Shown in pieces: positions 41,001 to 44,000 of a stretch of DNA of 64,000 nt. The notes beneath the pieces are model-generated. The model was not told the DNA's origin, searched no databases, and was given only the letters and a program-made list of their open reading frames with translations. The first letter of the stretch is position 1. Each line of letters starts with the position of its first letter. Both the position numbers and the translations under genes were made by a program. Source of the stretch: Odontesthes bonariensis (taxonomy: Eukaryota > Chordata > Actinopteri > Atheriniformes > Atherinopsidae); the NCBI RefSeq assembly GCF_027942865.1, contig NC_134509.1:20446697-20510696 (forward strand), given 5' to 3'.

Positions 41001-44000
41001 ACCAAGAGCAGCACTGACCACAGCACCAAGTAGGAAATATAACGTGGATGATGGAAATGCGTGTTACCTGAAATACTGTGCGGGGAAAATGGATTTATTT
41101 AAAAAAAAACTGAGATAAGTTTGATTAAATCAAAGCCAGTGTTGCATTCATCATTTATCATTTGCAGCATGAAGCCTGATGTGTATCATGTCAGGACAGC
41201 CGCCTCAACAGTGTAAGTAACAAATAAATCAAATGTTTGCTGTTCAAAAATAGTGATTAAATCTTTATGAATTGAAAAATAGTAATAAAGTATCAACAAA
41301 TCTCATTACATACATTTAGCGGACGCTTTTTTGATAACTTTTATAAGTGAGGAGCGCATTGGAGGGGACGATTTGGGGTCCAGTATGTCACCCGACTGGG
41401 AATGTTGACCTGATTGTAGGACGACCGCCTCCTGAAATACTCAAGACCCCATCAGATGAACTTCTTTGACATTTTATTTGATTTAAAACTGGGCTGTAAA
41501 TGTGTCATTTACTGCAGCCAACTAGCATTTCTTGTTTGGAACGGGCAGTTTTTGTGACTCAAAAAAGGATTTAAAGTTTCAACTGTTACTGTCCGCAGAG
41601 CACCGAGTGGCACCGGCTCATCACCGCTGTCAGGCGACCCTGTTTAACAGGCTTCGTCACATTGTGTACAAATTGTTGGAATTAATAGTTACACTGAAAC
41701 GAACTGTCTGCACAGTTGTTGATCTTTTTATTGTGTTAAATTTTCCAGTTTTTTTTTTATCTACTTCCATCCAGAGTGCACTTTCCTAAAATAAATGGTG
41801 AATTTTAAGTTGCTAAATGACAAATGACGAATGCAACGCTGAGAAAATTATGAAACGTGCTTCTGTTTTCATTATATCATCCATCCATCCATCCATCCAT
41901 CCATTATTTTCTGCTTATCAGGGTTCAGGTCGCAGGGTAACAGGTCCAGGAAGAAAACCCAGACATCCCTCTTCCTAATTGGGGGATCCCAAGGCATTCC
42001 TGGACCAAAAGGGATTTATTTTTCCTCCAGTGAGATCTGGCTGTGCCCTAACCTGTGCTCCTGGAAAACCTCCACCAACCAGGAGGCATCTTAACCAGAT
42101 GTCCGAACCACCTCAGGTCACTCCTTTCGATGCAGAGAAGCAGCGGCTCTTCTCCGAGCTCCTCCCCTTATCTCTGAGGCTGAGCCCAACCACCCTCCAA
42201 AGAAAACTCATTTCAGCCGCTTGTATCCGCAAACTAATCCTGTTGGTCACAACCCAGCTCTGTGACCATAGGTGAGGGCTAGTGACCATAGGGTTAGGGT
42301 TAGTGACCATAGGTGAGGGTTAGGGTTAGGGTTAGTGACCATAGGTGAGGGTTAGGGTTAGTGACCATAGGTTAGGGTTAGGGTTAGTGACCATAGGTGA
42401 GGGTTAGGGTTAGTGACCATAGGTGAGGGTTAGGGTTAGTGACCATAGGTGAGGGTTAGGGTTAGTGACCATAGGTTAGGGTTAGGGTTAGTGACCATAG
42501 GTGAGGGTTAGGGTTAGTGAGCATAGGGTGAGGGTTAGTGGCCATAGGTGAGGGTTAGGGTTAGTGACCATAGGGTTAGGGTTAGGGACCATAGGTGAGG
42601 GTTAGTGACCATAGGTGAGGGTTAGGGTTAGTGAACATAGGTGAGGGTTAGGGTTAGTGACCATAGGGTTAGGGTTAGTGACCATAGGTTAGGATTAGGG
42701 TTAGTGACCATAGGTGAGGGTTAGGGTTAGTGACCATAGGTGAGGGTTAGGGTTAGTGACCATAGGTGAGGGTTAGGGTTAGTGACCATAGGGTTAGGGT
42801 TAGGGACCATAGGTGAGGGTTAGGGTTAGTGACCATAGGTTAGGGTTAGTGACCATAGGGTTAGGGTTAGTGACCATAGGTGAGGGTTAGGGTTAGTGAC
42901 CATAGGGTTAGGGTTAGGGACCATAGGTTAGGGTTAGGGTTAGGGACCATAGGTGAGGGTTAGTGGCCATAGGTGAGGGTTAGTGGCCATAGGTTAGGGT
43001 TAGTGACCATAGGTTAGGGTTAGTGGCCATAGGGTGAGGGTTAGGGACCATAGGTGAGGGTTAGTGGCCATAGGTGAGGGTTAGGGGCCATAGGTGAGGG
43101 TTAGTGGCCATAGGTGAGGGTTAGTGACCATAGGGTGAGGGTTAGGGACCATAGGTGAGGGTTAGTGGCCATAGGTGAGGGTTAGGGTTAGGGACCATAG
43201 GTGAGGGTTAGTGGCCATAGGTGAGGGTTAGGGTTAGTGACCATAGGTTAGGCTTAGTGACCATAGGGTTAGGGACCATAGGTGAGGGTTAGTGACCATA
43301 GGTTAGGGTTAGTGACCATAGGGTAAGGGTTAGTGACCATAGGTTAGGGTTAGTGACCATAGGGTTAGGGTTAGTGACCATAGGTTAGGGTTAGTGACCA
43401 TAGGGTTAGGGTTAGGGACCATAGGTGAGGGTTAGTGACCATAGGGTTAGGGTTAGGGACCATAGGTGAGGGTTAGTGGCCATAGGTGAGGGTTAGGGTT
43501 AGTGACCATAGGGTGAGGGTTAGGGTTAGCGACCATAGGTGAGGATGAGGGTCAATAAACTTTTCAGTATATTGATCAGATTACTTGAGTCCTTATTTTA
43601 TGTTTTCCACTAACTAACACCAAGAAAACACCAACAGAACAAAGTTTTTGTCATTTTCTGGGAAGATGCAGACACAAATATTCAAACAACAGATTTCATT
43701 TCAGGGGTTAGTGGCCATAGGTTAGGGTTAGTGACCATAGGTTAGGGTTAGTGGCCATAGGGTGAGGGTTAGGGACCATAGGTGAGGGTTAGTGGCCATA
43801 GGTGAGGGTTAGTGGCCATAGGTGAGGGTTAGTGACCATAGGGTGAGGGTTAGGGACCATAGGTGAGGGTTAGTGGCCATAGGTGAGGGTTAGGGTTAGG
43901 GACCATAGGTGAGGGTTAGTGGCCATAGGTGAGGGTTAGGGTTAGTGACCATAGGTTAGGGTTAGTGACCATAGGGTTAGGGACCATAGGTGAGGGTTAG

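Follow-up and report, generated by a model that had tools for sequence, protein, structure and literature searches.

Dispersed elements can turn into tandem repeats, and Jurka and Gentles reportedly described minisatellites derived from Alu in 2006. In the human genome, at least 7,276 minisatellites and satellites, or 23%, were attributed to transposable elements (TEs) (Ahmed and Liang 2012, PMC3389668; this and the other PMC-numbered sources are cited from excerpts). LINEs have also given rise to satellites, including PROsat of Phodopus (from L1 ORF2), chicken HinfI (from CR1), and the common cetacean satellite (from the 3' part of L1) (PMC9659126). The statement in an initial annotation of the present locus that LINE-seeded satellites are known in principle is thus in line with the excerpts (PMC9659126, PMC3389668). 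The birth of minisatellites by slippage or misaligned exchange at short repeats has been treated by Haber and Louis (1998) and by Taylor and Breden (2000), the latter in Poecilia reticulata (cited in PMC6947457 and PMC3389668), and other fish minisatellites are covered in PMC2688266. Here, we describe a fish minisatellite that joins a LINE fragment and whose unit is a single-copy LINE segment elsewhere in the same genome.

Results

The window analysed (the whole 64,000-nucleotide stretch of DNA) contains, at 41878..42261 on the minus strand, the 5'-truncated 3' end of what appears to be a Rex3-like LINE, whose (GATG)n tail reads as a (CATC)n run from 41878 on the plus strand. As the initial annotation had claimed, a tandem array begins in this antisense LINE 3' part without a break or gap, at 42262 on the plus strand, and the motif that it had noted at the LINE/array transition, CTCTGTGACCATAGGTGAGGG, is present at 42258-42278. 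The first monomer (42262..42281, plus strand) is the LINE seed itself, GTGACCATAGGTGAGGGCTA, which matches the array unit at 19 of 20 positions. The array end given at 42420 was too early, however; the interval 41878..42420 covers only 159 bp of the array, and about 2.3 kb more follows. The minisatellite totals ~2.4 kb and forms two blocks on the plus strand. Block 1 (42262..43553) consists mostly of 20-, 21-, and 26-bp monomers and is followed by a non-repeat spacer of 154 bp (43554..43707), whose final GGG also opens block 2 (43705..44714). Block 2 opens as a copy of the part of block 1 from 42977, at an offset of 728, and is followed by a second copy of the spacer (44715..44868), identical to the first at 154 of 154 positions. 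TRF places the array end at 44684.

Monomer-by-monomer parsing gave 104 monomers across the two blocks, arranged head to tail and within the 10-100 bp unit range of TE-derived minisatellites. Among 103 anchored segments, 46 were 20 bp long, 28 were 26 bp, 21 were 21 bp, and 8 had other lengths. There are four main monomer forms. One is GTGACCATAGGTGAGGGTTA, with T/G and A/G variation in its first bases, and in a 20-bp form GGTTAGGG replaces GGTGAGGG. The 26-bp monomer is a form with one extra GGGTTA; the 21-bp monomer likewise gains a GGGTTA but lacks five bases in the TGAGG step.

The seed can be traced to the LINE. Its reverse complement reads LTYGH in the LINE frame, within a 24-residue stretch encoded by a second LINE fragment in the window, and the motif is therefore part of the LINE coding region. 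This second fragment carries the seed once and lies on the minus strand; its alignment to the LINE at the array spans 34451..34510, and further right the fragment aligns to L012, a LINE locus of this genome on contig C24. The single-copy motif that the initial annotation had reported for a separate LINE fragment was found there as CTCGTGACCATAGGTGAGGA at 34480-34499, matching the unit at 17 of 20 positions. The seed also occurs once in the LINE of a further contig (L001; 17/20) and once in L012, where it is identical to the unit (20/20) without forming an array; TRF likewise detected no array of the 20-bp unit in L012. The unit accordingly resembles a TE across one full period or more, as is the case for TE-derived minisatellites. 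The longest exact match of the doubled unit was 16 bases to the second LINE fragment and 17 bases to the L001 LINE, compared with 8 (plus strand) and 12 (minus strand) to the window outside the array and the second fragment. A LINE consensus lacking the motif had been proposed as grounds for rejecting a LINE origin. In three individual LINE copies outside the locus, which were used rather than a true consensus, GACCATAGGTGAGG was present in all, followed by GT in two and by AT in one, and a LINE origin is not refuted on these grounds.

The alignments of L001 and L012 to the LINE at the array (76% over 142 bases and 79% over 117 bases, respectively) both pass through the seed, and L012 is 90% identical to the second LINE fragment over 214 bases. 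The L001 LINE stops about 10 bases past the seed, and the copies that run on past it are the 34-kb fragment of the window and L012. The same ATTTAACGCTCTATAATT lies beside both of these single fragments (window 34676-34693; L012 1860-1877), and this shared neighbor suggests that they are parts of one larger or composite repeat, not two independent truncations. Separately, a more diverged LINE 3' end with its own (ATCC)n tail was found at 60602-60782 of the window, with 65.7% identity over 178 bases to the LINE at the array.

Read in the sense direction, the LINE at the array ends in TGA TAA GCA GAA AAT AATG (GATG)n, in the same frame as a 10-residue LINE peptide. The 3' end of Rex3 is described as a stop codon, GCG, (GAA)2, and (GATG)n, with GATC also printed in the text of the review (PMC6274825). 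The present copy resembles teleost Rex3 (PMC6274825) in having a stop codon, three bases, a GAA, and then the (GATG)n tail, and it differs in that the second GAA is degenerate. On these 3'-end features, in a copy truncated short of the RT domain, the element may be called Rex3-like. Pfam gave no match for two C-terminal pieces of the LINE. Its peptide had one relative, L001, among at least 593 candidate stretches in genome_contigs and none among 49 candidate stretches in IMG/VR, nor was one detected in phages or PDB.

L001 (its positions 1-3194) comes from MDJM01000023.1, a contig catalogued as part of an Epulopiscium MAG (GTDB genome), and the LINE lies at the contig end. Positions 1-1767 form a 589-codon open frame on the strand opposite to the LINE. 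This frame presumably encodes a bacterial GGDEF/EAL protein. A 219-residue ORF between the two weakly matched a helix-turn-helix domain of transposases (E 0.00013, 21.9 bits, against a cut-off of 27). With a bacterial-looking frame and a fish-type LINE on one contig, L001 is most likely chimeric, part bacterial and part animal, and we therefore counted it as further LINE sequence only.

We then considered where the unit occurs across the 945-Mb genome. The exact 20-mer was found at 13 places, 12 in the array and one in L012. The junction between monomers, GGGTTAGKGRCCATAGG, occurred 95 times, all 95 in the array (window 42297 to 44653), whereas its reversed control did not occur in the 945-Mb genome at all. 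The initial annotation had called for a search for further arrays of the unit, and the exact junction was present at no second locus of the 945-Mb genome; the junction and unit counts refer to exact patterns, which arrays diverged beyond them would escape. A looser pattern, CCATAGGN{8,22}CCATAGG, gave 338 forward and 644 reverse matches, compared with 251 and 158 for the controls, and the matches listed came mainly from two unrelated arrays on contig C2. In their own right, C2:1356052-1358775 and C2:5093773-5095202 are two unrelated-looking minisatellites with CCATAGG and periods of about 23 bp and 19 bp. IMG/VR contained no match to the unit or to the LINE form and two matches to a 17-base variant; we estimate that a few such matches would be expected by chance. 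The source is thus dispersed, with seed-bearing LINEs elsewhere on contig C4 and on C24, and the array is local, as in TE-derived minisatellites. Because the source is present in LINEs at other places and the product at one place, the direction was from LINE to array. These results support the proposal of the initial annotation that a short LINE segment was amplified in place: the unit is a single-copy LINE 20-mer elsewhere, and the junction exists at one locus.

The unit had also been described as the LINE motif plus a TTAGGG-like extension acquired by telomere-like creep. The extension is present, but a separate creep is not needed, since GGGTTA is already part of the LINE, at least in the C24 copy. 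The 26-bp form therefore requires just one six-base slip, and what looked like creep can be plain six-base slippage. Could the array instead go back to telomerase acting at a break, as an interstitial telomeric repeat that is now degenerate? GGGTTA is abundant (85 copies in block 1 and 56 in block 2), as such an origin would suggest; however, runs of three GGGTTA numbered only one in block 1 and none in block 2, the LINE motif recurs through the monomers, and the C24 LINE contains the hexamer. We therefore regard a telomerase origin as extremely improbable. Instability driven by G-quadruplexes was also considered and set aside. Motifs with four GGG runs and loops of up to 12 numbered 12 and 13 in the two blocks, and two-G motifs 19 and 23; no four-GGG motif with loops of up to 7 was found in either block.

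The flanks of the locus provide a candidate target-site duplication (TSD). Its left copy, TTTTCATTATAT (41866..41877, plus strand), abuts the LINE tail, and its right copy, TTTTCAGTATAT (43561..43572, plus strand), lies 7 bases after the last monomer of block 1. The two 12-bp copies match at 11 positions and flank the LINE together with block 1; by the 1161-bp offset, the right copy is repeated in the second spacer at 44722-44733. With the abutting condition imposed, none of 60789 other window positions reached 11/12, and random trials did so in 208 of 200000 cases. Once this condition was dropped in a free search, 190 of 5000 random pairs did as well, and so did 175 of 4769 when the left flank was kept fixed, which leaves the match at a level of only 4%. 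Because the candidate TSD brackets the LINE plus block 1, it would place the array within the insertion, at the truncated end of the LINE. A resumption of the LINE to the right of the array was considered and rejected, as 2531 of 5000 shuffles scored as well; a 45-base alignment there was carried by the common monomer and is no continuation of the LINE.

These boundaries also bear on the idea that the LINE was inserted into or beside an older minisatellite, which would account for the two lying side by side. The unit, however, is itself LINE sequence, at 20 of 20 positions in L012, and there is no array to the left of the LINE, no other genomic place with the exact monomer junction, and a candidate TSD that lies beyond the array rather than at the LINE/array joint. 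An older minisatellite thus seems scarcely credible.

How the LINE segment first became tandem may be read from the other copies, as the LINE at the array does not show the region concerned. The LINE B copy contains an imperfect direct repeat, GACCATAG and GAACATAG, 18 bp apart, and this pair has the same spacing in the C24 LINE (L012). Repeats as good as that of LINE B arose in 154 of 10000 shuffled sequences and among 127 of 10000 16-mers from the window; the L001 repeat, GACCATAGG and GAACGTAGG, is weaker (943 of 10000 and 673 of 10000, respectively). We propose that a Rex3-like LINE was inserted in antisense orientation and 5'-truncated, its truncated right-hand end coinciding with, or lying slightly beyond, the codons that read GTGACCATAGGTGAGGGT in antisense, close to where LINE copies have the imperfect repeats. 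Slippage or misalignment between these repeats would then have produced the first tandem duplication. The repeat spacing is 18 in the LINE copies and the array unit is 20, so that an 18-bp slip with a gain of two bases may have yielded the 20-bp unit. Slippage and unequal exchange would subsequently have extended the array rightward, and slips of five or six bases at AGG/AGGG steps may have given rise to the 26-, 21-, and 15-bp variants and to the telomere-like look. Of the 28 monomers on the left of 42943, 22 begin with the LINE-like TGACC, compared with 30 of the 75 on its right, an excess that fits the LINE side being the old end. Slippage across short repeats fits this evidence without proof.

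Alternatively, the first copies might date from retrotransposition itself: slippage or re-priming by the LINE reverse transcriptase close to the 5' truncation point would have made the insertion tandem from the outset. Consistent with this, the array lies at the truncated LINE end and, by the candidate TSD, within the insertion, and the L001 LINE likewise ends some 10 bases beyond the seed. However, most of the 104 monomers would be later growth regardless, an early slip by reverse transcriptase looks the same as one by DNA replication, and the 34-kb copy and L012 continue past the seed. This origin is, in our judgment, unlikely. One could go further and suppose that reverse transcriptase made the first copies and that a built-in imperfect repeat near a favored truncation point makes this LINE a recurrent minisatellite generator; we regard this as very unlikely. 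For both proposals, the odds were lowered because two of the three other copies continue past the seed.

In addition to growth by monomers, the array carries the mark of a larger duplication. Positions 43705-43707 fit both the spacer (offset 1161) and array positions 42977-42979 (offset 728), an overlap of three bases, GGG. A block of ~730 bp including the right flank was probably duplicated in tandem at a later time, with 3-bp microhomology at this GGG. Between the blocks there is then an additional difference of 433 bp (1161 minus 728). The monomer strings contain further copied blocks, such as eight monomers common at an offset of 1259. Since the spacers are identical at 154 of 154 positions, the duplication could be recent or an assembly artefact.

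The array is probably located within an intron of a fish gene, the LINE type and the initial annotation both pointing to a fish genome. To its right lies an exon-like ORF (45421-45573), preceded by an acceptor-like AG found by eye. A Pfam search of five nearby ORFs gave a weak Peptidase_C69 match for the ORF at 36580-36843 (E 0.00051, 19.6 bits, cut-off 23) and no match for the other four. In PDB, one nearby ORF had no match and another matched nothing beyond release factor 2, weakly (E 0.32 and up), and NCBIfam gave no match. The exons near the array may belong to a secernin-like gene. No sign of function was seen at the array, which is probably neutral.

The window also contains other repeats. 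A pair of 0.67-kb elements (22326-22989 and 38311-38976) matches at 95.6% in inverted and 88.3% in direct orientation, so each copy should be largely palindromic. A 1-kb direct repeat (7036-8041 and 14188-15213) shows 93% identity, and an inverted pair (46017-46712 and 52976-53619) shows 90%; an ORF on the minus strand at 46436-46729 presumably encodes a Tc1-type transposase.

Discussion

The observation and core reading of the initial annotation hold, with the coordinates extended and the telomere-like part explained more simply. We consider it highly probable that the locus arose through seeding by a LINE fragment, slippage, unequal exchange, and a later block duplication. No paper on the present array was found in the literature searched by sequence strings, by peptide, and by Rex3 combined with minisatellite or satellite. 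Searches with GTGACCATAGG returned no paper on repeats, judged by title, and YGHELWV did not occur in the literature searched.

A single genome here shows the source copy, the seed, the array, the candidate insertion boundaries, and the later duplication. The locus could be used as a test case for the origin of TE-derived minisatellites, which is described as unexplained for the majority (excerpt of PMC3389668). It also illustrates that a telomere-like look can come from LINE sequence without telomeric DNA.

TE-derived minisatellites are already known, and the array is a new, well-resolved case of a known type of event. As in the human examples (excerpt of PMC3389668), a short segment of a dispersed element was amplified in place; here, however, the segment is from the coding region of a fish LINE, the exact unit also occurs unexpanded in this genome, and element and array together are surrounded by a candidate TSD. 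Short repeats enclosing the amplified motif, as described for Haber and Louis and for Taylor and Breden in the excerpts citing them, may be present here as 8-9-bp repeats 18 bp apart, but these are imperfect and located inside a LINE. PROsat, HinfI, and the cetacean satellite, as described in the excerpt of PMC9659126, share with the present array the conversion of LINE coding or 3' sequence into tandem repeats; they are satellites of their genomes, whereas the array described here was found at one locus.
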